Shown here in pieces: positions 8,448 to 54,460 of a DNA stretch of 64,000 bases. This stretch comes from Stramenopiles sp. TOSAG23-2 (lineage: Eukaryota > Sar). How positions within the stretch are numbered: the stretch's first letter is position 1; the number at the start of each line of letters is the position of its first letter. Both the position numbers and the translations under genes were made by a program. The notes below the pieces were generated by a model. It had not been told where the DNA came from. It worked only from the letters and a program-made list of their open reading frames with translations, and searched no databases. The stretch is taken from NCBI GenBank assembly GCA_900128395.1, contig LT649237.1:1-64000 (forward strand), given 5' to 3'.

Positions 8448-9686
8448 ATGACCATGGAAATAGCAATTATTGGATATGAAGGATGTGAATATCATATGTC
8501 TGCAATTGAAACAGCACATGCAGCTGGCATCAAAGCTATTGTAAAAACTGTGCCAAATCCAGAAGAATTTCAACGTTTTCTTATGTCAATAAAAGCAACA
8601 ACCCATCGTACTTCACCTATTGTTTTTGATATCACTGCTACTACTGCAGTGTCAGGTGTTAATATAAATATGGAGAGTCTTCTAGGCGCTACGCTTATTG
8701 GTGGATGTGATGAATTAAAGCAAAAACTTGGATATGCAACAACAGCAGAGGAACAACAAATGGCACGTCAAATCGATACATCGTCGCGTTCACCTGATGA
8801 AATAGCATCATTCTTTCATACAACACAACGTAGTCATCGCTTTGTATTGTGGGTTTTATGGCGTGGTGTTTGGTGACCTCCATGTCAGCAGTCGCTTCGT
8901 GGATATAATCGACTGCTGGATGATGTCCATAATGCAGGCGGTGAAATTATTGGGATTACCTCTGCACCACAAAGTCAAGCCGATACTGCTGCTAAAGAAT
9001 GGGGAATAAATTTTCCACTAGTGTCCGACCCTTCCTGTGAACTTGTTCTTGCCATGAATCGTAACGGTTGGATCAACAGTGTAGTTGAAATGGATGAATC
9101 GCGTACATCATCTGAAAGTTATTTTGTTCAACAAATTGGTACACAATATGAAATTGGAATGTTGCAGCCTGGTGTTGTTGCCCTGCAAGGCGAGATCGAT
9201 GTCTATAACGACAAAGCAACTAATGAAGATAGAAAAGTTCTTGTAACGTGGGGTTCAATTCCAACACTGGATAATGCTAAGGGTGCTGCTGGAAGATTAC
9301 ATCCACGTGATGCGTGGAGTGCGGTTAAACGGAGCCTTGATGGTGATTTTTCACTTGCTAGACCAGAAACTATTCAAGGTAAAATTCCAATCAATCCTAT
9401 CGTCTTTTGTATGATGCTTATGGCAAATGGTAATTTTATCATGCCTAAAACATTTACAAATGATGTTAATACTGGCCGTGGAGCAGATATTAAAAGGCAA
9501 AGTGCCATGAGAAAAGGATTTCTTGCTCTAGGTGCTTTAGGCTTTGGTGCTGTAAAAGCTCCGAAGCAGACATCTGCACTTCTTGCAGCTTACTTATCAT
9601 ATTTTTTTTTGACACCAGGTGGTCCAGGACAAGTCTTATATACCACTCTTTTTGCTGAATCGAAGGCTGGTACCAGCAAGCTATAA
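8448..9686 (+). CDS. Selenoprotein: glutaredoxin-like domain fused to peroxiredoxin-like (AhpC/TSA) domain with W-U-P-P-C
   Basis: One continuous frame of 412 residues if TGA 8874-8876 is read as selenocysteine (U143). ATG 8448 starts it; ATG 8454 in ACCATGG context is an alternative. Residues 1-95 look like a glutaredoxin-type thioredoxin fold: a first strand AIIGY, then GCEYH in the active-site position (second Cys replaced by His), TSPIVF at the cis-Pro position and a GGCDEL motif. Residues about 130-300 follow the AhpC/TSA pattern: strand FVLWVLWRGVW, the redox motif U-P-P-C, a helix, GGEIIGITSAP, then EWGINFPLVSDPSCEL. Codons after the TGA stay open to TAA 9684-9686 with uninterrupted homology-like sequence. 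Sec in place of the first Cys of CxxC is a classic arrangement for thiol oxidoreductases, so I infer a peroxide or disulfide reductase. The C-terminal ~110 residues are Ala/Gly-rich and unassigned. A SECIS-like hairpin lies 3' of the stop. The alternative is a pseudogene with one stop, which the SECIS argues against. Confidence 0.88.
8874..8876 (+). other. In-frame TGA proposed to encode selenocysteine
   Basis: Sits between TGG and CCT CCA TGT, giving W-U-P-P-C. Both sides are in the same phase. TGA is used as a true stop by other genes in this window (18144-18146; probably 3896-3898), so a wholesale code change is unlikely. Confidence 0.87.
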
Positions 9687-10437
9687 AGATTCAACATATA
9701 TATATATATCACAAAATGTATATATATATATATATATAGATAAATGTATAAATGTAAGATGGATTACTCAAACATAGTACTTTTTTCAAATTTTTTTACA
9801 TAATTTTTTGAGAGAGAGATAGAATTTTTGTTCTTTAAATATAGTATCACACACAACAAAAACAACAACAATAAACATGTTGCGTAAAAATACATATGAC
9901 GTACACTGCTACAAAATCTTGATAGTTATAGGATGTAGTAATGTACCGAGAAATATTAATTGTTGTTTAATTTTAAATAATACGATATCGTATGATATGC
10001 ATATCATAAATCGTAAATATATAACGCGTATGAATATTTTTTTTATGATAATATTATTGGTTAAAATCTAAGTTATAATAGTTTTACTTCTCATTGGCCG
10101 TATCAAAATTATTTTTGTTTTATTTTTTCTTTAATTTAATATCTCGCACCATATATCATTATATTATGTACGAAGTATTATATTATGGTGTATTATTATG
10201 CGTTTTGGTGATAAATGTTCTCTCTTTCTCTCTCAATTTCTTACTCTCCGCGAATTTTGCAATATACGTAACTATTTTTTTTTATTAGTTTAATATTTTG
10301 CAAAACAAATGAATGAAATATGTGTGAATCTAATATATACATGATGTGTATTATATTATTATTATATTAATATAATATTCAAATCATAATATGAAATGTG
10401 GAGCTGATCCAAGTTATTGATATCATTATCATAACAA
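9687..10437. other. 3' intergenic region with TA repeats and paired palindromes
   Basis: Between the convergent selenoprotein and SLC44 genes. Besides the SECIS it holds (TA)n tracts at about 9694-9738, then two abutting perfect palindromes: TACGATATCGTA (9981-9992) and TATGATATGCATATCATA (9991-10008). Short open frames here look non-coding. Confidence 0.6.
9889..9957 (+). promoter_or_regulatory. SECIS element (type II-like) in the selenoprotein 3' UTR
   Basis: ATGAC at 9896-9900 is followed by helix strand GTACACTGCTAC (9901-9912). This pairs with GTAGTAATGTAC (9935-9946) through ten Watson-Crick pairs, one G-U and one mismatch. CGAG at 9947-9950 completes the non-Watson-Crick quartet opposite TGAC (tandem G.A/A.G). 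The apical loop starts with AAAA (9913-9916), giving the conserved AA. An extra short stem, ATCTT with TAGGAT, sits inside the loop as in type II elements. A weak AATA/TATT basal helix closes it. It lies about 210 bases after the TAA. Confidence 0.85.
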
Positions 10438-24187: not shown

Positions 24188-25544
24188 TTATGCCTCTTCG
24201 AAGAAACTATCAGGCACATTTGCACCAATCAATTTACTCAATACGAAATCTACCATTTCTTCAGCATCACGTTCTCCATCATATTCGTCTGGAACGACAT
24301 CTTTTACATTACCTGGCATATATGCAAATGTTGGAAACTTTTGAATATTAAAATCTTGACATAATTGTTCCTCCATGTCACAATCAACGGCGCCAAAAAC
24401 GGTACCTTTGAAATCAACATCCTTCCCTGCATTACCACCCGTTGATGCTAATGCAAATGTTGGTTTTACCTCGGTGCAATGTGTACACCATGGCGCATAA
24501 AACATTAAAAATAAACTTGATCGTGGATCACGTCTACTGCCAAAATTATCATTTGTAATTTTAACAACCTTACCAGAATTTTCTTTCGTTCCCCATGCTG
24601 GTAAATTTAAATTCATACTAGTAACATCTTCGTTACTACTCTTTTCTTTTGGCTTCGTCGGTCCCATTTTACTTGCTACGAATTTCGATAAGCGTGTAAC
24701 TGTAACTCTTCCTTCAAATTCAATACCAATTTTATTTTTATAAAACATAAATGTTGGATATCCATCTATTGCTTCTTCTTGACATAATGCTTTTTCAAGT
24801 TCACAATTTACAGCAATTGCTGATGGCAATGGTGAAAGTATCTCTGTTTGTTGTTGATTTTTTTTTAACAATTCATCCGCAAATGCTGAATAAATTGGTT
24901 GTGATAATTTTGACATTTCACACCATGGTGCATAAAACATAATCATTGCGCCATCTTCACGACTTCTTTTATTTTCTTCACCTGTCCATTCGTTGGTGTT
25001 GATATGTGTCACTGCGCCTTCAAATCCACCTTTTGGTAACATACTATCTTTTCCACGACTTGAAAATAGTCTACGAGGACTTGCAATGTTTTCTCCTCCT
25101 GCCGCCACCTCATTTTCTTGTAAATCTTGCTGTTGCCCCTCCTCCATTCTTTCCTCTTCTTCTTTCAATGAATCTAAATTAGCTTGTTTCATTCTCATAT
25201 CTTTTATATTTTGTAAATATGATACATAATCATCTTTACTTTTGCAGCCATTGCATACAATACCGAGTTCCTGTAATAGTCCTTTGACTTGGCCTAAGCG
25301 TAATGTTTTCAAATCTACATTTTGTATTGGATCATCCACACGTTCTGTAATTTGTGCTGATATAAACGTATCAAAATCCGTTAAAGTACGCGGTCCACCA
25401 TATGAAACAACTTCATCTAAACTATCTGAAAAATAATAAAAGGTTGGATATCCATCAATTTGATACTCATAACATAATCGTTGTTCTGCTTCACAATCTA
25501 TGCGTACATATATCCTCTCGTATATCTGCTCTTCTATTTCTTCA
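24188..25544 (-). CDS. Protein disulfide isomerase-like protein, 5' end missing
   Basis: About 450 residues are visible, with no in-frame ATG in the first ~110. The frame opens inside a thioredoxin domain: ERIYVRIDCEAEQRLCYEY then DGYPTFYYF is the second half of such a domain, and its active-site half is absent. A splice acceptor (ATATTGAG ending at 25545) fits the break. A linker follows (CNGCKSKDDY, acidic coiled coil). The second thioredoxin domain has WCEMS (about residue 208), a single-Cys active site, and DGYPTFMFY. The third has a full CTHC (about residue 353) and FPTFAY. The protein ends FFEEA, without KDEL or HDEL. PDIs oxidise and isomerise disulfides in the ER. The upstream exon was not found before the next gene, so either a long intron or a 5' truncation must be considered. 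Confidence 0.75.
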
Positions 25545-39388: not shown

Positions 39389-42300
39389 ATGTCGCATTCA
39401 ACTACCTCGAAACGAAAGACATTAAAGAGTAAATCCACTAGAAATAATAATAGTTCAAAAGGACCTGCTACTGATGTTCCTCCACATAAAAATATACCGT
39501 CTCACTTGAAATATCCCAATTATCGCAAAGTTGATGAGGCAACTGTTTTAGCTATGGCAGAAGGGACGCATTCAAAAAGTGACTTAAGAAAAACAAAGCC
39601 AAGTTTAATGTTAAAAGACTTACGTGCTACAAGGGATCCAGCTGAAGATGGGGAATTGGTACGACCAGCTCCGCCAGAGATATTGGAGTTTTTAAATATT
39701 GAAGATTACAGTGCACAGAAACAATGCACCGTGCCGTTGGAATATCCACTTTTTCAACCATATCCAGCAGATTTAGTGTTTCGTAATTTTGAACCGTTTG
39801 GCACATACCATCAAAGACTTTATTTTCGCAATAACGACTCGTTTGCAAGACGTGTACGTATATTGTCGCCAGACTCTCCATTCTTCACCGTAAGGCCTGT
39901 ATTTGATGATCCTTCTTTAGCCGTTCCAAAAAATGGTAAAGTTGCAGCTGGTATGGAAGTTTGCTACATCGTTACCTTTCGACCTAGAGAGAAACGTGAT
40001 TATAATTATAGTTTAATATGTGTTACGGAACGTGAAAAATTTGCTGTTCCAGTACGAGCTATTGGTACGAGGGCGTGTTTAGACTTTCCAGATAATGTTG
40101 AAATGGGAATGGCGCCAGTGAAACATACGGCAACAAAAACTTTTTTAGTGCGTAATGTTGGTGAGAAAGCAACTAAATTTGCTTTATCTGCGAGCCAACC
40201 ATTTGATGTAGAACCAAGAAATGGTTTTGTTGCACAAGGTGCTAGTATACAAGTAACTGTTATGTTCACTCCAGATGTTGCACGTTCATATGAAGGAGAA
40301 ATGACATTGGAATATGAAAATGGACAAGTAGCCGTTGTTGGACTTACCGGGGACGCACAAAATATCAATGTGCATCTAGGATCTCAAATTGTTGAAATTG
40401 ATCCTGCATACATATCATTATCATCCCAAAAAACTGTGAAAGTTTATAATCGTAGTGGTGTTCCAGTACAATTTAGTTGGAAAGCATTTGGCGCGACGGA
40501 GGAAGAGCAACATGAAAGGAACAGATTGCACAATGAGTTAAATCGCATGGAAGAGATGGAACGACGCCATTTAGATTCTCAACATTTTGAAGATGAAGAT
40601 GGGGATGAAGATGATTATAGTGAAGACGAAGGGAACAATATGCCAGCAGCAAAACGACGTGAAATTGCAGCATTGTCACGTAAATATAAACATTTAAGGC
40701 GTGCAGTGCAAGAAGATTCATTATTATTTGCAGATGAAAATTTCTCAATAGAGCCTATTCAAGGAGAAGTGTGGGCAAATAGTGAATTGGAATTCACGAT
40801 TACTTTTTCCCCAGAACAAGCTGCTGATTATGCATGTGTTGCATTCTTATCAACCACTGGTAGGGAACAATGCTTGCCATTGAAAATCCAAGCAACTGGT
40901 ATTGGTCCACAAGCATCTTTTACCTACGATGTGTTAGATATAGGTGATGTGTTTGTTAATAGTGTTCATACATACGAGCTTGTGATGGAAAATAGCGGTG
41001 AAATCGATGCGGAATACGATTTACAACCATCCGATACGCCATTTGGTCCTAAATTTAAATTTTCACCTGAATCTGGTAAATTAGCCGTAGGTGAAGCGCA
41101 TAAAATTGAAGTTAGTTTTTGCTCAGAAATTCTTGGAGAATTTTCTGAACATTTTCATTACAGTTTAAAAGGCAGTCAAATTCCTCTTAGCGTACATTTC
41201 AAAGGTCATGTAGTAGGCCCAACTTTTCATTTTAATGTGGAAGACATTGATTTTGGCATTGTTTCGTATGAATTTGTCAATAACCGAAGCTTAACTTTGT
41301 ATAATACTAGTGAAATTCCAATGACATATACGTTAAGAGTACCTCAAGATGGCAAATTTCTTCAAAAAGAGTTTGACATCAACCCATCAAGTGGAACTAT
41401 CGTTCCGGATGGTAAGGTGGACATCCAAGTTGATTTCATTTCAACAACTGTTAGAGTTTATGAAATGTATTTAACAGTAGATGTTGAAAACGTAGGCGAA
41501 GGATTGCTTTCCATTCCTATTAAAGCAGAGTGCCGATTACCAGACGTAACGTTGGGATCTGAGGAAATTGAATATGGATCATGCTTTTTAAGATATCCAT
41601 ATGTAAAAACATTGGAATTAATTAATGACAGTGATCAAAAAGCAAGGTATGAATTCTTACCGCAAGAGGAGCATACGATGATACTTGGGACGTATGAAAC
41701 GGAAGAGACAAAAGGTACCATTGATGCGAGAAGTCGTGTTGAAGTACCAATAACTCTTACATGTGAAAAATTAGGCAAAGTAAATCTTCCAATGTTTGTT
41801 AAAATATCAGGCCAAGAAAGGCCACCAATGAATATTGCATTAAATGCAAATGCAACAGGTCCAAATGTAATCTTAGATCAAAACGATGGAATCAACTGGG
41901 GGCCAACAACATGTTTAATACCATCCACCAGAGAATTAAAAGTAACAAATGATTCTCTTATTCCAGCTCCATTCCGCACATTTATGAAAACCCAAGGTTC
42001 TGTTTTCTCCGTTGATTTAAACGAAGGTATGTTAGCACCAGGTGAAAGTGTTGTTTTGAAGATTACTGCTAAACTTGATGATACGATTGTTCATAAAGAT
42101 CAATTACAAATCATAGTACATGAAGGTGGAAATATCATTGTTCCATTGGTAGCCAAAGGGGAAGGTACTACACTATCATGTGATGATGATATCTCCTTTA
42201 TCGAATATGATTATCAATTTACCAGCGTTACCTGTGAAAAAAGATTCTTCATTAAAAATTTAGGAAGGCGTGCGCAAGATATCACATGGGTAAATAAAAC

Positions 42301-45300
42301 TGTAAAAGAAAATGATGAAAAAGCACAAACGGAGTTTATACATGCTATGCGTGAATTTAAAGAGAAAGGTGATGATAAAAAGAAAAAGAAAAAGAGAAAG
42401 GCGCCAGTTGAGCCAAGTCCATCAACCGCAGTGTTCACAGTGGAGCCGGAAACAGTTACTTTAAAACCTAATACAGGTTGTGAATTTAGTTTTTATGGCA
42501 ACACGCCGTTAACTGATAATTTCTTAGAGGAATTAATATGTGAAATTAAACAAGGAAAAGAAAAAAATGGCCGTCCAATGTTGTCTTGCAAATGCCATGG
42601 TATTTTCATTAACCCCGTGCTTGAACCTTCTGTAAAAGAATTATCGTACGTATATACGTGGCGGGATGGCATGCCATTGACTCAACAAATTCAACCTATT
42701 ACATTAAGAAACGTTGCTGAATTGCCATTAGATTTTGTTTTGCGTACTCAATTACCATTTAGTATCGATACGTACGAATTTAAATTAATGCCTAATGAAA
42801 CGACTACAGTAAATGTTTCATTTGATCCTGGCTACAGAGACGATCGTGTTTCCCACGTAGCTGAAAGTGCCCTTACTGCTGTTTATAGAGATCACCCTAA
42901 ACGTGATTCCATTCCATTAATTGGGGAAATCAACTTTCCAAATTTACAATTCGATTACACTACTGTTGATTTTGGTACCGTCTTAAACGATACCACGCAA
43001 ACGGTTAGCGTCAAAGTTACCAATATTAGTAAAATTGATACAGATTTAAGCTGGACATTTGAAGCTGATGAAGAAGCTGCACGCAAAAAAGCTACAGCTG
43101 CGCGTCCATATATTCCTGTCAATCAGGTATATGACGTTCTTCCTATTCGTAGTTTGTTGCGTCCTGGTGAAACGGAAGTTGTTGAATTTGCGTTTTACGG
43201 CCATGCAAATCGTAAATTCCGCACTACGGCTGTTGGTATAGTTCAAGGAGGACCAGAATATCCTGTTGTATTGCAAGGGGAAGCATCGACGATAGCACAT
43301 AGAATGGATCAGTCATATCTAGATTTTGGAAAGGTTCCATATGACGTGGAAGATGAAGTGAAAGAATTTAATATTATTAACCCAGGACGCGTACCTTTTG
43401 ATTACCGTTTGCGCCTTGATGAACTTTCACGACCGGATATTATAGTAGCTCAGCCAACTAGTGGCAGAGTATATGCAGGAGACAAACAAAAAATTACCAT
43501 TAAATTTATGCCAGGTGTTCCAGATAGAATTATGGAGCAAGTAAAAGTAGATATTGCCCATTTTGAACCAATTTTGTTCCCAATATATGGACATGGTATC
43601 TTTACAAATGTTTTTGTTCAGCTTCCACGGGAAGATGCTGATGATGAAGTTTGGTTAGCAACATTAGAGGAAGCTCGAAGAGCGATTGAGGGGGCTAAGA
43701 ATGGAGAGACTATGGAAAATCAACCACCACTTCCACCTGCAATAGTTCCACCATCCCAAGATGGTTCTCGTCCAGATACTAAGCAATCAACATTGACAAC
43801 AGGCCGTAAAATGATAGCACAGCGAGGAAAAGATGCCGGTGTTGAAAATAGTGGCGAATCTGGACCACCAAAAACTGCTCCTGCAATGTTAGCAATACCT
43901 ATTACATCCAGAAAAGCTTCTGTTGAAACTGTTGATGAGGATCAACTTCCACCAGCAGAAAAAGACGAAGCAATAGCCATTCAAAATGAGGCAAATCGTA
44001 TTGTTTTTATGAGATATTTGTTAAAACAATTAGAAAATAATGCAAGGGCATTTGATATGGAAAATGACGGGTATGAAGATGATGATGGCGATGATCCATT
44101 TTCTGATACAAAATCAAAAACATCAAAGACTTCTAAATCCAATGTACAAGTTCCAAAATTACCAATTGCTGTAGTTGAAGCCCCTAGTAAAAATGCAATG
44201 TCAAAAGCAAAGCCGATTGAAACGGAAGATGGTGGATTATTAACTGTTAGAAGTCAATTTACACCGGATTTTGTTCTAGCAAAATACGTGTGTGATTTTG
44301 GTCATGTAGTAGCTGGTACCGTGCGCAAAAAGAAATTTGTAGTTTCAAATACTGGATATCTTCCTGTAACATTTACCATCGATTCCGGTGGTGCTTCGTC
44401 GAAAGGGTTCCATATGGACCCAGAAAAAGTTAAGAATGTTCCTGAAGGTGAGGATATTAATTTCAAAGTTACATTTAAATCAAAACGTAGTCGATTAGGT
44501 CCAATTCAAGTAGAAGTTCCAATATTTTTGAAAGATGGTCCAGCTATTGTCTTAATCTTAAAAGCTAATGTGACAATACCAGACGTATCTGTTACTCCAG
44601 AGCAAGGTATTGACTTTGGTACAGTTCTATTGGGCAGAACTAAGATTATCAATTTCCAATTGAAAAATTTAGCTCCTGTTCCTACAACTTGGAGCCGTGC
44701 AAAACAAACGAAAAATGCTCAAGACGAAAACTATTTTATATGTACACCAGATGTTGGGACATTAGCGCCAGGAGAAGCGCAAAATATTCAAATACATTTC
44801 ACACCAACTGGCAATCGTTCATATGAATTTAAATTGCCAGTTAAGATTGTTTCAAATCCTAGAGTCAAAACGATTGATTTGAAAGGTCAAGGTAAGGAAT
44901 TGTCCATTATGTTTACACCGTCAAGAGTCAGCCAAGTCCCTGTATTACCATTCGCAGATCCAACTTCTGTTATTGTTAATGCAATCAATGAAAACGATTA
45001 TGACGTTGAATTTTATAGTCTAGATTTTGATACCCAATATGGGGAAGAAGAGAAAGTATTGCGAGAAATAGATGAAGCGATTTGGACTGGTCATATTCAT
45101 GGTGATAGTGTTGTAAAGGGATTGAGTAATTACAATTCTACAATGGTTGTTGAACCTAGAAATGTTGGCGGCGGTTTGCCAGAGAAAGTTTTAGAAAGCA
45201 AAGCTAGAAAGGAGAGAAAGCAACTTCGCAGGGAAAAGCGTGCTGCAAGAGAAGCAAAACGTAAAGCCCGCGAAGAGGCTGTTAAAAAAGCAGAAGAAGA

Positions 45301-48300
45301 AGGTACTGATCCACCAGCTGAGGAGGAAGACGCGGGTGAAGAGGAGAATTTAGATAGCACCGACGATGAACAAGGTGAAGTTGGTGAATTGGAAGTTGAA
45401 GAAATCCCACCAACAAAACGGGAGGAAGGCTTAGCATTAGATGTAGTGTTCCATGGTGCTCCATTTACAAGTTCGGAGGATATTGCTAGAAAATATGCAA
45501 ACGAAATGGGTTTCTTCCCATTAAATCTAGATGAAGTAGTTCAAGAAGCTATTGATAATAATACATTGGGTGGGCGTGCAGCGAAAGAAAAGCTTGGATA
45601 TTCCCCTGAAGGAGAAAAACCGGATGAAATTGAAGATTATACGCTATCAAATGAGCTTTTAATAGCTATTTTACGTGATCGTGTAAATAGTCGTGAATGT
45701 GGAGATGGTGTTGTAATTGTTTCGCTTCAAAGTAAATATGCGAATGAAGTAGAAATCGCTAAAGCTGTGAAAGATGCTTTGTCTACGGAAGCCGTAGTGC
45801 CGGCACTGGAAGAAGAAGGAGGAGGAGAGAAGGCAGAAGATGCAGTCGAAGAGCCTGTAGAGGTTCCTTTACTAGAACAAGCCGTGAAAGATGCAAGTAA
45901 GCTAAAAGTAAAATCAGGAGATTTACGCCTTATCAACTTTACCTCTACGAGTGAAGATGAATTTGCTGAGTACATCAATAATCGTCGCCTAGCCTTAATA
46001 GAGGCCTCAAAAGAACCAGAAGTAGTTGAAGAAGAGGGGGCAGATACCACAGAGGCTGAAGGTGAGAAAGAAGAAAAAAATGATGAAGAAGTTCCTGCCG
46101 AGTTTGATAAAGATCCATTTGAAGAATTGTCTGAGGAAGATATTATGAAAATGTCTGACGAGGAAAGGGCCGATTATGAGAAGGAAAAGAAGAAGAACGA
46201 TGATATGAAAGCTAAAGAGGCTCGTGAATTTGCTTCAAATTTATTGATCAAGTTGGAATCTACACTTAAATCAGTTGGTGAGGATTTACAAAAAACTGAT
46301 GAAGAAGTTGCAGAGATGGATGAGGATGCACAAGCAGAATATTGTAAAACAAGAGGTAAAGCATTATATGGAAGTGCAACACAAAATGTAGATGAAATCA
46401 AAGTGACCTTTGGTTTTGTTGCTGAAGTAGAAACAATCGAGGGAGAATTTGTCGAACTATCAGAGGAAGAAGTTGAAGCATTGTCGGAAGAAGAGAAAAC
46501 AGCATATTTGGCTAAAAAAGAAGCATTAAATGCGGAAACGGCTGGAGAAGAAAAGGATGAAGATGACGAAGACGAGGAAGATGAAGGGGAAGAAAAGGAG
46601 GAAGTGGAAAATTCAGAAGAAAAGGTTGAAGCAAAAGAGGGAGATGCTGAAGAGACTACGGAAGAAGCAACTGAAGAAGAGGAAGCGAAAGTTGAAGAAA
46701 AAGTCGAATTCGTCCTGAATGTGTTGGTCGGTGGTGAATCAACTGAGGATTCGTTATATGATGATTTCTCCAATGTGATTCCTTCGCCGCCTGAACCACC
46801 AGAGTTCGTCCTTCCAATTCCAGATCCAATTGAAAATCAAATTTTGATCAAACCTCATGAACGTAAACAGCGGAGAAAAATTAATTCTTTCAAAATTGTT
46901 ACAATCAGTAAACCATTTAAAATTGGTGAAACTGATACTTTCAAAGAATTAAGCGAGGAGGACATTGCCAATTTAGAAGATGATGCAAAAGCGAATTATG
47001 AAGCTGAAGTGCAAGAAAGACAAGCTTTGAAATCTGCTTCTCGTTGGATCTTGCCTGCAAAGTCACAAATGTCATTAGCCATTGAATTTGCTTCGAAACA
47101 AACTGGTAAGAGTAATTCTATATTGGACTTTGAAATAGTTGGCAATACTAGAACATTTTCCGTGTCAGCTGATGGTGTGTGCGCTGTACCAGCTATTAAC
47201 AAACAACCTATGGTCGTATTTACAAGACGTGCTAGAGGCAGACCGCCTATTGAAAAAGTGCATAAACGTTACGTAGATGGGCGCTCTGCATATGAATTTG
47301 GCCCATTGTTAATTAACAAACCTAGAAGCCTTATAGATGATATTAAAGCAGAGTTTGAAGGAATGGATGCAGATGCGGAGGAAAAGGTAAAGGTGGCGCA
47401 AACGATGGCAATGTTTGACAAACTTTCTAAATTAGACAATGCTGATACATTAAATATTTCAAATAGTGGTGTTTTTGATACTCGTGTTGACTTTACGTTC
47501 AAAGTTGGGGATAATGAGGCACCTTCTCCATTTGTCGTGTGGCCACCATTTATTGAATTGCCTCAAGGGGAAACCAAACAAGTTTCCATATGGGCGTTCC
47601 CTGAAACGGCAGAGCTGCATGAAGATACGTTGGTTTGCAGCATTCAAGATAATCCAGCTGTAGAAACATTCCCAATTGCATGTTTAGGTGCAACTCCAAT
47701 GATTGAAATTCATGGTCCATGGGAGAAAATGCAAAAAGAAGCCAAAGAGGAAGGGGAAGAGGGAGAAGATGCTCCGAGTGGTCCTATTATTGATTTCGAT
47801 AGATTGTTATTGAAGCGTAGAGAGGCAAAAGACTTTTCCATTAAAAATACTAGCTCGATTCCAGTCGCATGGAGACTTAAATTGAGTGATAATTTGATGA
47901 ATAGAAGCGAATTTGAAGTTGGGCCAAGGGAAGGTGTCCTAGCACCAGAAGGTGTGGAATATGTTACCATTAACTTCGAAGCTGTTGAGCCATTTAAATT
48001 TGATGCAGAAAATATAATTATTGAATATTCTGATACTGAAGGTGGCTTGCCTACAGTTGAGGAGCAGGAAGGTGGAGCAGAAGGCCGTATTGAATCTACT
48101 AATATTGACGTACGTGCAGAAGCTTATGATATTAAATTCGTGATTCCGGAATTTGGTAAAACTGCACCAAGCAAACCAGGTAAGAAAGTGGAAGAACTTG
48201 TTGAACCAGTTTCAGATGAAGAAATGGCTGAATTAGAAGGTGGTGTACTGAATTTTGGTGCATTGAGAGTATTTGAACAGGCAGAAAAAACATTTACATT

Positions 48301-51300
48301 GCGCAATGCGGGAGATTATCAAATACGATTTGAATTTGAAATACGAAGACGCTCATCCGCAAAATTATTTTCTATTACTCCAGAAAATGGTGTTTTAGAT
48401 AGTGAAGGCGAAGTTCAAATTACATTGACGTTTAACTCGGAAGCTGAAGTTAACTTGAAAAACAATAAAGACATACGTTGTAGTATTTATGAACCAAAAA
48501 CTGATGAATTTTTTGAAAGCTTTGATCTTACAACAACAGTACGATCACTTTTCTCTACTTTCCGTTTACAACCATTACGTGGTGTCAATTTCAGTGCTGT
48601 GAAATTCGGACAAACCGTGACCCGCATGATTGAACTAAGGAATGACGGTGAATTTGATTTTGTTTTTAGAATTGTAGATGTAAAAGCAGATGACGTAAAA
48701 ATTGCCGATGAAAACAAAGAAGCGCAAGAAAAAGGCGAAGAAGCAGTTACAGAATTGAAAAAAGCAAGAGAAGATGAACAAAAATTATGGCTAAGCAATT
48801 TATTAAATCCGGATGATGTTCTGAATGATGCTCCTCTAAAAACTGGGCCATTTACGATTGAACCGGCGAATGGTGTTGTTCACCCTGGATCTACTGCGAG
48901 AGTGACGTTGAATTTTGATGCTGAGGGTAATCAATTGTACAGAACTCCACTTCGTTTTGATATTTCTGGCCGTGCGTCAACTAATGCATCTGGTCGTTCC
49001 TTTGAAGTCGTTGGGGAAAGTTGCATTCCTGGTATCGATACGAAAACATTCGAGTCAATATTTGAGGAACAGTCTGTTGTGCCACGCCTTGAATTCAATG
49101 AAGTGGAGATGGATGATCCAGATTACTTGGATGGACCAAAACGCATTGCTATGTTTGCTGAGGAAAATAAAATATTTTCATTTGGTGCTGTTGTACCATC
49201 TCAAGCCCCAAAATTGGGTGTCGCTGAACGTTTCAAAATTTCAAATCATAATAAAATCAAGTGCGTCGTAAATTTTGAGTTATCCATGCAAGGTGTGGAT
49301 GAAGGTAAGACAGCGGATGATGGTGCGGCGTTTAAAGTTCAACCGTCAAGTATTGAACTTCCTCCTCATGAACATCGTTACATAACAGTTTATTTCAAAC
49401 CAACTGAAATGCGATCGTACACGGCAGCGTTTGAAGCAAATGTTGAAGATGGTACAGAGCCGCAAACAAAACAGCTACGTTTTGATTTAACTGGGGAAGG
49501 TACTTTACCATGCGTCACTGTTGAAAATCCAACATCAGTTGATGCAGATGGAGCGTTGTTGATTGATTATTCAAGAGCTAGAGCTGGAAAATCGAAATCT
49601 CAAACCATAGTTTTGAGAAATGCAGGTACCGTCCCAGCAACTTTGTATTTTGATATGGAATTGAATAAAGCATTTTCTTTCCCATCAAGAGGACATTCAA
49701 TCACACTTCCACCTCGTGCAACTGAAACACACACGGTAATCTTCAGTCCACCAAATGCACAGGAAGAACCATTTGAAGGCATGATCAAAATGACTGTAAT
49801 GCAAAATGAATATGAATCTACTCGTATCCGTTTGCGTGGCGTCGGGTATTTGGAAGATTTATCCATAGAAGGTCTTCCAGGTGGTAGCTCAGATGAAATT
49901 GACTTTGGTCAATTAGATGTGCTTCCAAATGCAAACGGTAAACAAGTTAGTTTCTCCTTACAAAATGACCAAGCTGAAGTTCAGCGCTATGAATTTCCAG
50001 AACACGATGATTTCAAATTCGTACCATCTGTTGGTCATATTTATCCAGGCCAACGAGCGGAGATTATTGCCGAATTTCTTCCGGCTGCAGTACGTGCACT
50101 TAGTGCTGATATGGGTGAAGAAGGTGGAGAAGAAGCAGAGGAAACGCCATTTGAAGCAATTAAACATTCCAAGGTACCAATACAAATACAAGTCACTAAA
50201 ATTGAGCATAAAGGTAAAAAAGTTGGTGAAAAAGATGAAGAAGCCATTGCTGCAATGTCTGAGGAAGAAAAGGCAGCATACGAAGCAGCTATGGAAAAAG
50301 CACCTATGGAAACTGTGCCAGTATGGGATAATTCCCAAAGATCTGTTGTCTACAACGATGAAGGCGAAAAATCTGAAGAAATTGCACCAGAGCCAGAGCA
50401 TGAAGTATTAGGTGATGCAAAAGAAATTGTACTTAATGTAACAGGTTGTGCAGATGTCGTAAGGTACGAATGTGCGACTAATCAAATTGTTTTCCGTCCA
50501 ACAATGATGTTCCAAACAAGAGGTTATAAATTCACGGTTAATAATACGGGTGGCAACACAATATCTTATGATTGGGCATTAAAAAATAAAAATATCAAAG
50601 GAAGCACGTTGCAGCTAGGCAAAGCTGATCTGGATAAAGGTCCTGCATCTATTGATTGTCCATTTAAATTTACACCGCAACGTGGCAACATACAAGCTGG
50701 TGCAAGTGAAACATTTGTTGTAAGATTTGCACCTATGGAAGTGCCTGTTACGATGGGTGGCGTATTTAATTATGAAGCAAGGGCAAGTATTGAAAATTTG
50801 CCATTCGGTACTAACGATTTAATGCTTGATATTCGTGGTGCAGCACAGCGTCCGGTTTGTCACTTTGAATTACCTGGCTCGGATTATTTAGAAAGACGCC
50901 CTGCTGACATGCCAGGTCCAAGCGGCAATATTGGTCCATTAGATCCTTCCATTAAAGTTATTTTCTTTGAATCGTTGGGTACAAATATTAAAAATACACT
51001 TCGTTTCAAAGTTATTAATCCAACAAATATGGGATATGACTTCATGTGGGAAGCTATTGGAAATCCACATCCTGCATTTAATAATGCAATTAAGAGCGGT
51101 ACAGTGCTTCCAGGTAGACGACATGAGCAGATTTTTGAATACACACCTAGTAAAAATGATATTAGTGGTTTCCAAGAGTCATTTTTCAGATTCATGATCC
51201 CAAAACAGGGCGTGGATCAATTATTTTTGATTGCAGGTACAGTTGTAGATCCACGAGTAACATTAGACCGTACATTTGTTAACTTCGGTAGTATTTTACT

Positions 51301-54300
51301 TGGAAATCCAGGTACAGAAATTGTGAACTTTATTAACAGGGAAGATTTACCATTTGCATTTAATTTCGATCGCAATGTTCTTAGACCAAGAGGTGGCAAA
51401 ACGGTTATGTCAATTGAACCAATGAGTGGTGTAGTTCCGGCAAATTCGAAATTGCCATTGAAAATTGTGTTCGATCCAGCCGATGAAAAACCTGAAAATT
51501 TAAGTGTTAGCTGCTTAGTGCGTCGTAAACCAACAAAATTGTCATTAAATTTGAAAGGAGAGGGTGCTGGAGTACACGATACCTTGACATTGTTTGACGA
51601 TAGTAGTGAAGGTGATGATAATGGACTACCACAAGGTGTGGAATTAGCTCCAACTGGTGTGAACTACGTTGACTTTGGACAAGTACATATTAATGATACT
51701 GTTTACAAACGTGTTGTCATACATAACTCTGGCAAATTCAATTTAGATTTCCGATGGAAAAAACCAAAGAATCCTCAAGTCAAAATTGAACCGTTGCAAG
51801 GCATGGTGCGTATTGGGGATCGTCTTGAAGTTAAGATTTCATACCATCCAATCAATGAACAACCATTGGGTGGTATTAAATGTTCCTGTGATGTCGCTGG
51901 AACTCATAAATACAATTTAAGTATCAACGGTCGTGGTGCAAAACCAATGCTTGATTTCTCCTTTATTGAACACAACTTCGGCCCATGCTTTGTTCCTGAG
52001 CGTGGTGGTGCGCCAATGGCAGAAACGACTATGTTACGTTTAACCAATAACGAGTTTGAAAATGACGTTGCGTTTGATTGCTTATTCGAGAAAACGCCAC
52101 ATCTGGAAGTTAAAACCCAGCCGACCATGCTTCGTCCAAACGAATCTATTGATATTCCAATTATCTTTACAGCAAGAGAGGTGAAGCAATACAATGAGAT
52201 TATTAAATTTGAATTGAATGGTCTATACACAGTTAATGTGATAATTAAAGGAGAAGGTTGCTTATTGAAAGTAGAACTTGCAAACCCAACGCAGTCATTA
52301 GTTGCACTAGGATCCTTACGTGTTGGACAAGAAGCTACTAGAAAGGTATTGTTGGTGAATAAGTCAAAACGGGCAGCGTTATTTACGTTGGAAGATGTTG
52401 TTGAAGCTGGGCATGGGCGCTTGGAAGAAAGGGCTGTTACGTTCTTCCCTCGTGGAGAAGTATTAATAGGGGCCAGATCTAAAACAAACATAGAAATAAG
52501 ATTTAACCCATTGAAACGTTTATCTCCATTTAAAGAAGATTTGAACTTGTCTGTAGTTGGGAGTAAACGTAAACTTCTTACCATTACTGGATCATGTCAA
52601 GGAATTGAAGTTACATTGGAATCGGATGCTGTGCCATTTGGTAGTATTTGCGAAGGGTGCCGTATATCAAAGAAATTGCAGATGGAAAATTCAGGAGATC
52701 TTGGTACGAAATTCAAATGGGACAATAGCTCCTTCGGGCCAGACTTTTCCATTTCGCCAGCGGAAGGATTCCTTGCGCCACATTCTGGAGTGGTTTTTGA
52801 AGTTATGTTCCATCCTACACGTGTATTCGATGACTTTAGACGAGATCGACTTATGTGTATGGTTGACGGTGCCCCACCATTGTTTTTAACTTTATCTGGT
52901 GCATGTGAAAGACAGCCATCTGACAATATTAAAGAAATGGAATTCAATGCGCGTGTACGTGAAGTTGAGAAACAAAGCATCACAATTAATAATCCAACTA
53001 ATTCAACATGGGTTATTAAACCGGCAATTACAAATAATTATTGGAGTGGCGATACACATCTTCGTATTGAAGCCAAGTCAAGTGGTGATTATGAAATAGC
53101 ATATAAACCACTGACGATGACGCTACCTCAAACGAAAACGGAGACAAACGAGGAGGGTGAGGAAGTGACAAGTGAACCGTTCACTGTACGCCATGAAGGT
53201 TCAGTATTCTTTCCTTTACCAGATGGCACGGCATTGCTGTACAATTTACTTGGTACAGCGGATGAGCCGGCAGAGCAAGATAATTTCGAGAAAACTGCTG
53301 CAGCGAAGGAGAAAATGATATTCGAATTCCCAGTCAAGAATTGGTTAAAGAAAGCACAGCGATTCCGTGTAGAATGGGATGATGATAATGATAGATTCAG
53401 AGGTGGACAAACGTTGGATGTTCCTGCGAATGGTTTAAGAACTTATAAACTAAGTTTCTTTGGACTGAAAGAAGGAGAATCTTTTGAGACCAAAGTTACA
53501 TTTACTAATCCGGAGAGTGGCGAGTATGTATTTTACAACATCAAAGCAAATGTCACTGCGCCAATTATCATGGGTAAAGTGAAGATGAATGCACCTGTAC
53601 GGCAAACCATGCAGCATGTCTTGTCTATTGAAAATCCATTGTCGATGGATAAGGAAGTGACATTTGAGGAAGGTACATGGTGGACATGCGAGGATCCATG
53701 TGTACGTGTACGTCGTTTGGGTGAAATGACTGGAAATCCAGAGTGCAATTTCGAAGTTGAGTTCCGTCCACTTGTTGCTATTTCTGAACCTAAAGAGGTT
53801 AGATTAACCATACAATCGGTTGAGTTGGGCGATTATCACTATACATTGATATTGACTAGCGAAGCAGCTGCAAGTGAGCGCGCTTTGCAATTTAAGGCAT
53901 CACTCGGTTCATCCCATGTACAAACATTCCGCTTCAAAAATATGGTACAAGAGCCAACGGAATACAAATGTATTTGTGGTAATCCAGATGCATTTGAAAT
54001 GGAAGAGAAAATTATGGCACCAGCTGCCGAAGATTGGGAAGGAACGGATGTTGAAGTATCAATATCTTTCGAACCGATCGCGCTTGGAGAAGTTCGTGAC
54101 ACATTACGTATTGTATCCGATGTTGGTGGCGAATTCGTATGCTCGCTTTACGGAAATGGTGTTGCACCACGTCCACAAGGTCCATTTATGATCGCTCCAG
54201 GTGAAACCACATCCATTGAATTCAAAAACGTTTTCAACGAGGCTCGTGAATTTTCGTTTGTTGTCGATAATCCATTGTTTAGTGTTAATGTAGCATCACA

Positions 54301-54460
54301 AAAATTGGATGCAAATAAACCAATTACGTTGACAGTTAAATTTGAGGGTCCTAGTGAAGAAAACAAAGACGAAGCTGTTAGTGGAAAATTGTATGTGTCA
54401 TGTCCAGAGCTCAAAGAACTACCTCCATGGGTATATTACCTTAGTTCCAAAAGCACGTAA
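39389..54460 (+). CDS. HYDIN: HYDIN homologue, ciliary central-pair protein, single exon
   Basis: 5,023 residues in one unbroken frame, similar in length to animal HYDIN. The N-terminal part has the family signature PYPADLVFRNFEPFGTYHQR and VTEREKFAVPVRAIG. Dozens of ASH/MSP-type beta-sandwich domains follow throughout, each with a pattern like [IV]xFGxVxxG...NxGxxPxxF...F...PxxGxxxPGxxxx[IV]x[IV]xFxP. A basic then acidic segment lies at about residues 1930-2000. At about 2010-2180 is the HYDIN adenylate-kinase-like region (LALDVVFHGAPFTSSEDIAR); its P-loop lacks the GKT/GKS residues, so it is probably non-catalytic. A Glu-rich region spans about 2180-2450, and further ASH domains run to the C terminus. 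HYDIN sits in the C2b projection of the central apparatus and is needed for ciliary motility. Start ATG follows an A-rich leader. Confidence 0.97.
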   Translation: MSHSTTSKRKTLKSKSTRNNNSSKGPATDVPPHKNIPSHLKYPNYRKVDEATVLAMAEGTHSKSDLRKTKPSLMLKDLRATRDPAEDGELVRPAPPEILEFLNIEDYSAQKQCTVPLEYPLFQPYPADLVFRNFEPFGTYHQRLYFRNNDSFARRVRILSPDSPFFTVRPVFDDPSLAVPKNGKVAAGMEVCYIVTFRPREKRDYNYSLICVTEREKFAVPVRAIGTRACLDFPDNVEMGMAPVKHTATKTFLVRNVGEKATKFALSASQPFDVEPRNGFVAQGASIQVTVMFTPDVARSYEGEMTLEYENGQVAVVGLTGDAQNINVHLGSQIVEIDPAYISLSSQKTVKVYNRSGVPVQFSWKAFGATEEEQHERNRLHNELNRMEEMERRHLDSQHFEDEDGDEDDYSEDEGNNMPAAKRREIAALSRKYKHLRRAVQEDSLLFADENFSIEPIQGEVWANSELEFTITFSPEQAADYACVAFLSTTGREQCLPLKIQATGIGPQASFTYDVLDIGDVFVNSVHTYELVMENSGEIDAEYDLQPSDTPFGPKFKFSPESGKLAVGEAHKIEVSFCSEILGEFSEHFHYSLKGSQIPLSVHFKGHVVGPTFHFNVEDIDFGIVSYEFVNNRSLTLYNTSEIPMTYTLRVPQDGKFLQKEFDINPSSGTIVPDGKVDIQVDFISTTVRVYEMYLTVDVENVGEGLLSIPIKAECRLPDVTLGSEEIEYGSCFLRYPYVKTLELINDSDQKARYEFLPQEEHTMILGTYETEETKGTIDARSRVEVPITLTCEKLGKVNLPMFVKISGQERPPMNIALNANATGPNVILDQNDGINWGPTTCLIPSTRELKVTNDSLIPAPFRTFMKTQGSVFSVDLNEGMLAPGESVVLKITAKLDDTIVHKDQLQIIVHEGGNIIVPLVAKGEGTTLSCDDDISFIEYDYQFTSVTCEKRFFIKNLGRRAQDITWVNKTVKENDEKAQTEFIHAMREFKEKGDDKKKKKKRKAPVEPSPSTAVFTVEPETVTLKPNTGCEFSFYGNTPLTDNFLEELICEIKQGKEKNGRPMLSCKCHGIFINPVLEPSVKELSYVYTWRDGMPLTQQIQPITLRNVAELPLDFVLRTQLPFSIDTYEFKLMPNETTTVNVSFDPGYRDDRVSHVAESALTAVYRDHPKRDSIPLIGEINFPNLQFDYTTVDFGTVLNDTTQTVSVKVTNISKIDTDLSWTFEADEEAARKKATAARPYIPVNQVYDVLPIRSLLRPGETEVVEFAFYGHANRKFRTTAVGIVQGGPEYPVVLQGEASTIAHRMDQSYLDFGKVPYDVEDEVKEFNIINPGRVPFDYRLRLDELSRPDIIVAQPTSGRVYAGDKQKITIKFMPGVPDRIMEQVKVDIAHFEPILFPIYGHGIFTNVFVQLPREDADDEVWLATLEEARRAIEGAKNGETMENQPPLPPAIVPPSQDGSRPDTKQSTLTTGRKMIAQRGKDAGVENSGESGPPKTAPAMLAIPITSRKASVETVDEDQLPPAEKDEAIAIQNEANRIVFMRYLLKQLENNARAFDMENDGYEDDDGDDPFSDTKSKTSKTSKSNVQVPKLPIAVVEAPSKNAMSKAKPIETEDGGLLTVRSQFTPDFVLAKYVCDFGHVVAGTVRKKKFVVSNTGYLPVTFTIDSGGASSKGFHMDPEKVKNVPEGEDINFKVTFKSKRSRLGPIQVEVPIFLKDGPAIVLILKANVTIPDVSVTPEQGIDFGTVLLGRTKIINFQLKNLAPVPTTWSRAKQTKNAQDENYFICTPDVGTLAPGEAQNIQIHFTPTGNRSYEFKLPVKIVSNPRVKTIDLKGQGKELSIMFTPSRVSQVPVLPFADPTSVIVNAINENDYDVEFYSLDFDTQYGEEEKVLREIDEAIWTGHIHGDSVVKGLSNYNSTMVVEPRNVGGGLPEKVLESKARKERKQLRREKRAAREAKRKAREEAVKKAEEEGTDPPAEEEDAGEEENLDSTDDEQGEVGELEVEEIPPTKREEGLALDVVFHGAPFTSSEDIARKYANEMGFFPLNLDEVVQEAIDNNTLGGRAAKEKLGYSPEGEKPDEIEDYTLSNELLIAILRDRVNSRECGDGVVIVSLQSKYANEVEIAKAVKDALSTEAVVPALEEEGGGEKAEDAVEEPVEVPLLEQAVKDASKLKVKSGDLRLINFTSTSEDEFAEYINNRRLALIEASKEPEVVEEEGADTTEAEGEKEEKNDEEVPAEFDKDPFEELSEEDIMKMSDEERADYEKEKKKNDDMKAKEAREFASNLLIKLESTLKSVGEDLQKTDEEVAEMDEDAQAEYCKTRGKALYGSATQNVDEIKVTFGFVAEVETIEGEFVELSEEEVEALSEEEKTAYLAKKEALNAETAGEEKDEDDEDEEDEGEEKEEVENSEEKVEAKEGDAEETTEEATEEEEAKVEEKVEFVLNVLVGGESTEDSLYDDFSNVIPSPPEPPEFVLPIPDPIENQILIKPHERKQRRKINSFKIVTISKPFKIGETDTFKELSEEDIANLEDDAKANYEAEVQERQALKSASRWILPAKSQMSLAIEFASKQTGKSNSILDFEIVGNTRTFSVSADGVCAVPAINKQPMVVFTRRARGRPPIEKVHKRYVDGRSAYEFGPLLINKPRSLIDDIKAEFEGMDADAEEKVKVAQTMAMFDKLSKLDNADTLNISNSGVFDTRVDFTFKVGDNEAPSPFVVWPPFIELPQGETKQVSIWAFPETAELHEDTLVCSIQDNPAVETFPIACLGATPMIEIHGPWEKMQKEAKEEGEEGEDAPSGPIIDFDRLLLKRREAKDFSIKNTSSIPVAWRLKLSDNLMNRSEFEVGPREGVLAPEGVEYVTINFEAVEPFKFDAENIIIEYSDTEGGLPTVEEQEGGAEGRIESTNIDVRAEAYDIKFVIPEFGKTAPSKPGKKVEELVEPVSDEEMAELEGGVLNFGALRVFEQAEKTFTLRNAGDYQIRFEFEIRRRSSAKLFSITPENGVLDSEGEVQITLTFNSEAEVNLKNNKDIRCSIYEPKTDEFFESFDLTTTVRSLFSTFRLQPLRGVNFSAVKFGQTVTRMIELRNDGEFDFVFRIVDVKADDVKIADENKEAQEKGEEAVTELKKAREDEQKLWLSNLLNPDDVLNDAPLKTGPFTIEPANGVVHPGSTARVTLNFDAEGNQLYRTPLRFDISGRASTNASGRSFEVVGESCIPGIDTKTFESIFEEQSVVPRLEFNEVEMDDPDYLDGPKRIAMFAEENKIFSFGAVVPSQAPKLGVAERFKISNHNKIKCVVNFELSMQGVDEGKTADDGAAFKVQPSSIELPPHEHRYITVYFKPTEMRSYTAAFEANVEDGTEPQTKQLRFDLTGEGTLPCVTVENPTSVDADGALLIDYSRARAGKSKSQTIVLRNAGTVPATLYFDMELNKAFSFPSRGHSITLPPRATETHTVIFSPPNAQEEPFEGMIKMTVMQNEYESTRIRLRGVGYLEDLSIEGLPGGSSDEIDFGQLDVLPNANGKQVSFSLQNDQAEVQRYEFPEHDDFKFVPSVGHIYPGQRAEIIAEFLPAAVRALSADMGEEGGEEAEETPFEAIKHSKVPIQIQVTKIEHKGKKVGEKDEEAIAAMSEEEKAAYEAAMEKAPMETVPVWDNSQRSVVYNDEGEKSEEIAPEPEHEVLGDAKEIVLNVTGCADVVRYECATNQIVFRPTMMFQTRGYKFTVNNTGGNTISYDWALKNKNIKGSTLQLGKADLDKGPASIDCPFKFTPQRGNIQAGASETFVVRFAPMEVPVTMGGVFNYEARASIENLPFGTNDLMLDIRGAAQRPVCHFELPGSDYLERRPADMPGPSGNIGPLDPSIKVIFFESLGTNIKNTLRFKVINPTNMGYDFMWEAIGNPHPAFNNAIKSGTVLPGRRHEQIFEYTPSKNDISGFQESFFRFMIPKQGVDQLFLIAGTVVDPRVTLDRTFVNFGSILLGNPGTEIVNFINREDLPFAFNFDRNVLRPRGGKTVMSIEPMSGVVPANSKLPLKIVFDPADEKPENLSVSCLVRRKPTKLSLNLKGEGAGVHDTLTLFDDSSEGDDNGLPQGVELAPTGVNYVDFGQVHINDTVYKRVVIHNSGKFNLDFRWKKPKNPQVKIEPLQGMVRIGDRLEVKISYHPINEQPLGGIKCSCDVAGTHKYNLSINGRGAKPMLDFSFIEHNFGPCFVPERGGAPMAETTMLRLTNNEFENDVAFDCLFEKTPHLEVKTQPTMLRPNESIDIPIIFTAREVKQYNEIIKFELNGLYTVNVIIKGEGCLLKVELANPTQSLVALGSLRVGQEATRKVLLVNKSKRAALFTLEDVVEAGHGRLEERAVTFFPRGEVLIGARSKTNIEIRFNPLKRLSPFKEDLNLSVVGSKRKLLTITGSCQGIEVTLESDAVPFGSICEGCRISKKLQMENSGDLGTKFKWDNSSFGPDFSISPAEGFLAPHSGVVFEVMFHPTRVFDDFRRDRLMCMVDGAPPLFLTLSGACERQPSDNIKEMEFNARVREVEKQSITINNPTNSTWVIKPAITNNYWSGDTHLRIEAKSSGDYEIAYKPLTMTLPQTKTETNEEGEEVTSEPFTVRHEGSVFFPLPDGTALLYNLLGTADEPAEQDNFEKTAAAKEKMIFEFPVKNWLKKAQRFRVEWDDDNDRFRGGQTLDVPANGLRTYKLSFFGLKEGESFETKVTFTNPESGEYVFYNIKANVTAPIIMGKVKMNAPVRQTMQHVLSIENPLSMDKEVTFEEGTWWTCEDPCVRVRRLGEMTGNPECNFEVEFRPLVAISEPKEVRLTIQSVELGDYHYTLILTSEAAASERALQFKASLGSSHVQTFRFKNMVQEPTEYKCICGNPDAFEMEEKIMAPAAEDWEGTDVEVSISFEPIALGEVRDTLRIVSDVGGEFVCSLYGNGVAPRPQGPFMIAPGETTSIEFKNVFNEAREFSFVVDNPLFSVNVASQKLDANKPITLTVKFEGPSEENKDEAVSGKLYVSCPELKELPPWVYYLSSKST

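Follow-up and report, generated by a model that had tools for sequence, protein, structure and literature searches.

A probable selenoprotein gene of a microbial eukaryote joining glutaredoxin-like and peroxiredoxin-like modules

The frame at positions 8448-9686 on the forward strand of the window, which here denotes the whole stretch of 64,000 nucleotides analysed, is very probably a single intact selenoprotein gene, belonging to a microbial eukaryote and encoding a two-module redox enzyme, with the TGA codon at 8874-8876 decoded as selenocysteine (Sec) under the direction of a hairpin. What appears to be a gene cut by a stop codon is thus most likely a single Sec protein, because the genome contains the Sec machinery and the relatives of this protein break at the same place. 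The best reading of the product is a selenoprotein of microbial eukaryotes comprised of a glutaredoxin-like (Grx-like) and a peroxiredoxin-like (Prx-like) module with a UxxC site. A preliminary description of this DNA had already read the TGA as Sec, and this reading is supported by the machinery, by the conserved break and by an AhpC-TSA match that extends across the TGA, from which we infer the insertion of Sec itself. The N-terminal Grx-like domain and the SECIS-like hairpin are additions to that description.

The coding frame and its single TGA

With the TGA read as Sec, the coding frame specifies 412 amino acids, beginning at ATG 8448 or ATG 8454 and closing with a true TAA stop codon at 9684-9686. 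ATG 8454 coincides with the aligned first Met of P0007-P0011, five of the six metagenome proteins matching the N-terminal part, and the first Met of the sixth, P0012, corresponds to ATG 8448. The TGA at 8874-8876 is the sole interruption of the frame and lies in the context V-W-U-P-P-C, where the predicted selenocysteine is residue 143 as counted from ATG 8448; this assignment is made from the reading of the frame and from the break that is common to the relatives. Re-reading confirmed the coordinates and phase of the two same-phase frames that had been described as linked by one TGA at 8874, as well as the 48 codons lying between the TGA and the next frame (8877-9020, with the next listed start being GTG 9021). 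Across these 48 codons the joined frame has the best codon preference, at 0.12 bits per codon versus -0.66 and -1.26 for the other two frames of the same strand. The window gene is the sole match in a search for paralogues in its own genome.

Domain organization of the joined protein

The AhpC/TSA, or peroxiredoxin-like, core occupies residues 125-204 (8820-9059) and is recognized by two Pfam families. In the joined protein, PF00578 (AhpC-TSA) matches residues 132-200, across the TGA, with 41.6 bits versus a cut-off of 26, and PF08534 (Redoxin) matches residues 125-204 with 37 bits, so that the AhpC/TSA assignment of the preliminary description stands when the joined protein is aligned. The part downstream of the TGA scores 27.7 bits against AhpC-TSA by itself, and the part upstream by itself has no AhpC-TSA match in Pfam. 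A cut at the TGA breaks this domain, as a strand and the active-site Trp precede the codon and a helix follows it. Within U-P-P-C, Cys146 (8883-8885) is the predicted resolving Cys, at a position that lies outside the coverage of all C-terminal relatives.

Residues 1-100 (8448-8747) form a glutaredoxin-like domain as judged by fold comparison, in which GST-type proteins score almost as high. A candidate Grx-site nucleophile is found in Cys13 (8484-8486) of a C-x-Y-H motif, which is invariant in all six aligned N-terminal sequences, the window sequence among them, as are Tyr15 and His16. Cys13 immediately precedes the helix formed by residues 14-25, the location expected of an active-site Cys at the N-terminal end of helix 1; where glutaredoxins have the second Cys of CPYC, the window protein has His. 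The domain is filed as glutaredoxin-like rather than as a member of the family because its profile matches are below the cut-off or absent: the glutaredoxin profile TIGR02190 gives 14.6 bits with residues 1-100, below its cut-off of 99.3, Pfam contains no Grx match for the N-terminal part, and the N-terminal profile finds no match in the PDB at E 1. One weak PHROGs match to the N-terminal part (E 0.016) is to a family of unknown function.

The remainder of the protein is a conserved C-terminal part (9060-9683) bearing GMLQPGVVAL, W-G-x-x-P, N-x-x-G-A-x-x-R-L and A-x-G-N-F, and this part holds most of the 30 columns that are invariant over 16 sequences. It has no Pfam family match, and its profile finds one weak match in the PDB, the AhpC/TSA protein 5enu (E 0.03). 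The predicted model of the Prx-like and C-terminal parts is of low confidence (mean pLDDT of 50), and in alignment A5, on which the full-length model is based, the first residues of some C-terminal fragments are misplaced.

Relatives that break at the same codon

A search with the whole protein among 5.8 billion metagenome proteins (6494 candidates) gave five matches, every one of which starts downstream of the Sec position. The N-terminal search gave six matches among 18 candidates; P0007-P0011 end exactly at the Trp preceding the TGA, the sixth match, P0012, being a deletion variant. With the C-terminal profile, at least 15 matches were found among the best 8000 candidates by shared words, five being identical with the whole-protein matches, and none of these 15 extends as far as the Sec position. 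The first residue of P0004, P0014, P0021 and P0022 lies 6 or 7 residues downstream of it, and P0013, P0015, P0016, P0018 and P0019 start about 50-60 residues downstream. Identity to the window protein is 39-60% for 13 C-terminal relatives, with the near-identical P0013 and P0015 excluded, and 57-64% for P0008-P0011. Judged from these protein sequences, a break at one codon position in the relatives is beyond chance, and a stop codon probably occupies the same place in several lineages, presumably TGA rather than TAA or TAG. Split relatives are exactly what gene calling blind to Sec would produce. The preliminary description had set its Sec reading against homologues carrying neither Cys nor Sec at residue 143; the relatives break at that position and show no unrelated residue, and the codon that they carry there is deduced from their proteins.

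No full-length form with Cys was present among the metagenome protein matches (whole-protein search and C-terminal profile) or the GTDB genome contigs, nor was a prokaryotic homologue found in the metagenome proteins or the GTDB genome contigs, where the C-terminal alignment yielded 35 pattern stretches with no relative among them. IMG/VR gave no pattern match with the protein and 55 pattern stretches but 0 relatives with the C-terminal alignment, and tblastn found nothing in phages. These relatives bear on whether the gene is a pseudogene or the product of a sequencing error, in which a Cys codon (TGC or TGT) was turned into TGA by mutation or misassembly. A single base change would suffice, and the PDB proteins that match the stretch by sequence are ordinary thiol proteins by name. 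Such an accident is nevertheless extremely unlikely given a break common to relatives of only 39-64% identity, a coding preference that is kept on both sides of the TGA, and the presence of a SECIS-like hairpin and of Sec machinery.

The deletion variant P0012, a single-member metagenome protein, does not differ from the window at either end, and in it the first 67 residues are followed directly by the final 29; the 948 missing nucleotides (window 8649-9596) are removed in frame and include the TGA. Its deletion edges, as deduced from the protein, are GT...TA, and the whole Prx-like core would be lost. By linking the two ends with the TGA skipped, P0012 could be taken to indicate two separate proteins, namely a Grx-like protein ending at the TGA and a second product arising by re-initiation or from a TGA-avoiding splice form, and the end of P0015, which is unlike that of the window, could be read in the same way. 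We regard this as very unlikely, since a cut at the TGA would split the AhpC-TSA domain, coding preference runs on directly past the TGA and P0012 itself has edges that are not GT-AG and a removed Prx core. P0007 lacks 27 nt and P0015 differs from the window at its C-terminal end; along with P0012, these differences may represent transcript variants, population variants or assembly errors.

The active-site motif was also sought as the pattern G-[VA]-W-U-P-P-C, which occurs in at least 131 stretches (12 viral and at least 119 from genome contigs). Nine of the 131 stretches listed pass E 10 in a phmmer comparison with the window protein, and their small E-values mean little because the stretches were picked for the motif. 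The sole stretch among those 131 judged to be a credible relative, L139 from a Planctomycetota MAG (23.1 bits), is a Prx-like frame with a TGA in RGAWUPPC and a local alignment to about residues 121-195, and this TGA fits the motif as a true Sec site. The other eight matches all have at most 15.6 bits, and the two inspected, L140 and L091, are of low complexity.

Sec machinery and standard selenoproteins of the genome

A lack of Sec machinery in the genome had been named in the preliminary description as evidence that would count against Sec; tRNA-Sec, SepSecS, SelD, eEFSec and SBP2 are all found in the same 17.45-Mb assembly. The two genes for tRNA-Sec, with anticodon TCA, score 64.4 bits each, above the Rfam cut-off. 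SepSecS is present in three pieces, and SelD (283 bits) shares its frame with an N-terminal part that resembles an oxidoreductase. The eEFSec has eEFSec as its best PDB match (2.3e-136) and bears the eukaryotic domains PF21208 and PF21131, with a score of 106.8 against the bacterial SelB profile, below the cut-off of 242. The best PDB match of SBP2 is the SBP2 of 7zjw (1.7e-22), followed by L7Ae (2.2e-4). The single GPx match in the genome has one in-frame TGA at the active site, and one of the four MsrA matches has one TGA at the active site, reading G-U-F-W; the single genome match for Rdx (SelW-like) has no internal stop.

Several of these genes have features of their own. The tRNA-Sec genes (L002 and L003, G000:C227) have equal scores and lie on the same strand with starts 179 bp apart. 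SelD (L008, G000:C587:1442-5374) follows an NAD(P)H dehydrogenase-like part in its frame, and its active site apparently has Cys and not Sec, both as judged by eye. The open frame of the SBP2 homologue (L022, G000:C113:27751-31029) also encodes a PAM2 motif and, at its C-terminal end, a Methyltransf_16 (lysine methyltransferase) domain.

A genome-wide reassignment of TGA to Trp or Cys, under which the codon at 8874-8876 would be ordinary, accounts for a frame that is open once TGA is translated. Judged from the window frames counted and from the selenoprotein genes and Sec machinery of the genome, its probability is practically negligible. The stop codons of the 16 window frames counted are TAA in nine, TGA in four and TAG in three (16 of the 23 window ATG frames of at least 150 amino acids, the 7 omitted being overlaps with larger frames, part of the selenoprotein gene, or short), and TGA terminating four of 16 genes therefore indicates no global reassignment. 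The restriction of TGA to one codon each, at the Sec site, in the GPx and MsrA matches and the eukaryotic Sec machinery likewise argue against it and are in keeping with a Sec codon in the window gene.

A SECIS-like hairpin in the 3' region

A scan of the 3' region, together with fold and geometry, identifies a SECIS-like hairpin at 9897-9950 on the forward strand, which starts 211 nt past the last stop base. It is comprised of TGAC (9897-9900), a 13-nt 5' arm, an A-rich bulge, a mini-helix with a 7-nt loop and CGAG (9947-9950), in the pattern TGAC-(GTACACTGCTACA)-AAA-mini-helix-...-CGAG; with its mini-helix on top of the A bulge, the element resembles the SECIS II type. The fold of 9886-9962 has an energy of -13.9 kcal/mol and a z of -2.4, and 3 of 200 shuffled sequences fold as well. 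Of 1000 dinucleotide shuffles made from the 751-nt 3' region, 2 hold a match at an energy limit that is the element's own value and was set post hoc, and at that limit the two strands of the window contain five sites, the hairpin included and one other located inside the coding frame (9412).

The geometry of this hairpin is common to the elements of the two standard selenoprotein genes, that of GPx having ATGAC, a 13-nt arm, an A-run and CGAC, and that of MsrA, which was missed by the first scan and found by a relaxed one, having ATGAT, 13 paired bases, an A-run and TGAG. Under a common rule written after all three elements were known, the arm forms 12 of 13 pairs in the window hairpin, 11 in GPx and 13 in MsrA; the best other window site reaches 10, and such a 10 is found in one of 16 other 3' flanks. 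Rfam SECIS_1 detects nothing in the window and nothing in the genome at E 10, and this silence is weak evidence because the GPx and MsrA elements are missed too. A SECIS in the 3' UTR is thus indicated by geometry and fold, with criteria set post hoc, and not by Rfam SECIS_1. The SECIS-like element of the MsrA gene (L157, G000:C36) has, beside its 13-bp arm, a very long apical part.

Proposed mechanism and wider significance

The insertion of Sec, the activity, the substrate and the route of electrons from one domain to the other are put forward here as a model. The TGA at 8874-8876 would be decoded as Sec by the cell's tRNA-Sec, eEFSec and SBP2, with the SECIS hairpin of the 3' UTR giving the direction. 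Sec143 of the Sec-Pro-Pro-Cys site in the Prx-like domain would then attack a peroxide or a disulfide, and Cys146 would resolve the resulting intermediate. The N-terminal Grx-like domain, through Cys13 in CxYH, could plausibly regenerate the Se-S bond with glutathione.

Eukaryotic selenoproteins and Prx-like UxxC proteins are known kinds, and it is the arrangement of the modules and the apparent lack of a Cys form that look new, as judged from metagenome proteins, GTDB contigs and open-licence papers. There is perhaps an even chance that the gene represents an unnamed Sec-only family of microbial eukaryotes, a self-contained glutaredoxin-coupled UxxC peroxidase/reductase with its own long C-terminal part, in which Sec is never swapped for Cys; plankton as the habitat of such a family is a guess. 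If the reading is true, microbial eukaryotes gain a likely Sec-dependent redox family in which a Grx-like module is fused ahead of a UxxC Prx-like one, and the fusion offers a testable idea for the recharging of the Sec centre. Ordinary gene calling splits this gene, as 20 of the 21 protein-database relatives are halves or parts of halves and one is a deletion variant. Paired half-genes that end and start around one codon are suggested as a handle for the mining of metagenomes for selenoproteins.

Two other genes of the window may be mentioned. A PDI-like protein, recognized by eye, is encoded at 24188-25198 on the reverse strand and contains two motifs of the Trx type, APWCEMSK and APWCTHC. 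An uninterrupted frame of 5023 residues at 39389-54460 on the forward strand is hydin-like by eye and suggests a flagellated organism with few introns.

Comparison with known systems

The Haemophilus influenzae hybrid Prx5-Grx (PDB 1nm3) has its Grx part at the C-terminus and is not known to contain Sec; the window protein differs from it in having the Grx-like part at the N-terminus and a UxxC site. SelL has UxxU, and the SelL-related NCBIfam NF040769 matches residues 128-198 weakly (E 0.003; 17.2 bits versus a cut-off of 120). No Sec protein combining Grx-like and Prx-like modules is described in the portions of the open-licence literature searched, and AhpC, peroxiredoxin, Prx and glutaredoxin are all absent from the excerpts seen of one paper (PMC6627142).

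Peroxiredoxin or peroxiredoxin-like selenoproteins are noted in the consulted portion of another source for Ostreococcus and Thalassiosira (PMC2375036). Two AhpC/TSA selenoprotein families of algae, AhpC_a (TGGUT) and AhpC_b (UxxC), appear in the sections available of a further study (PMC7539508). AhpC_a shares the AhpC/TSA domain with the window protein and has Sec in three algae, and its motif TGGUT differs from WUPPC (PMC7539508). AhpC_b, found in the diatom Thalassiosira oceanica, is a eukaryotic AhpC/TSA selenoprotein with UxxC, which the W-U-P-P-C of the window fits; as far as its description in those sections allows comparison, its homologues are prokaryotic Cys forms (PMC7539508), whereas none was found for the window protein among the metagenome proteins and GTDB contigs.

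Among marine prokaryotes, the extracts seen of the Global Ocean Sampling study describe Prx-like UxxC families and fusions of Prx-like proteins with unknown domains (PMC2398784). Prx-like 1 and 3 of that study resemble the window protein in having a pfam00578 or pfam08534 domain with UxxC, and differ in that they are listed as prokaryotic and have Cys homologues, 2,740 and 2,608 respectively (PMC2398784), whereas no Cys homologue was found for the window gene. On the same partial description, the window gene is set apart from both by its eukaryotic machinery, its SECIS-like hairpin, its N-terminal Grx-like domain and its long conserved C-terminal part.
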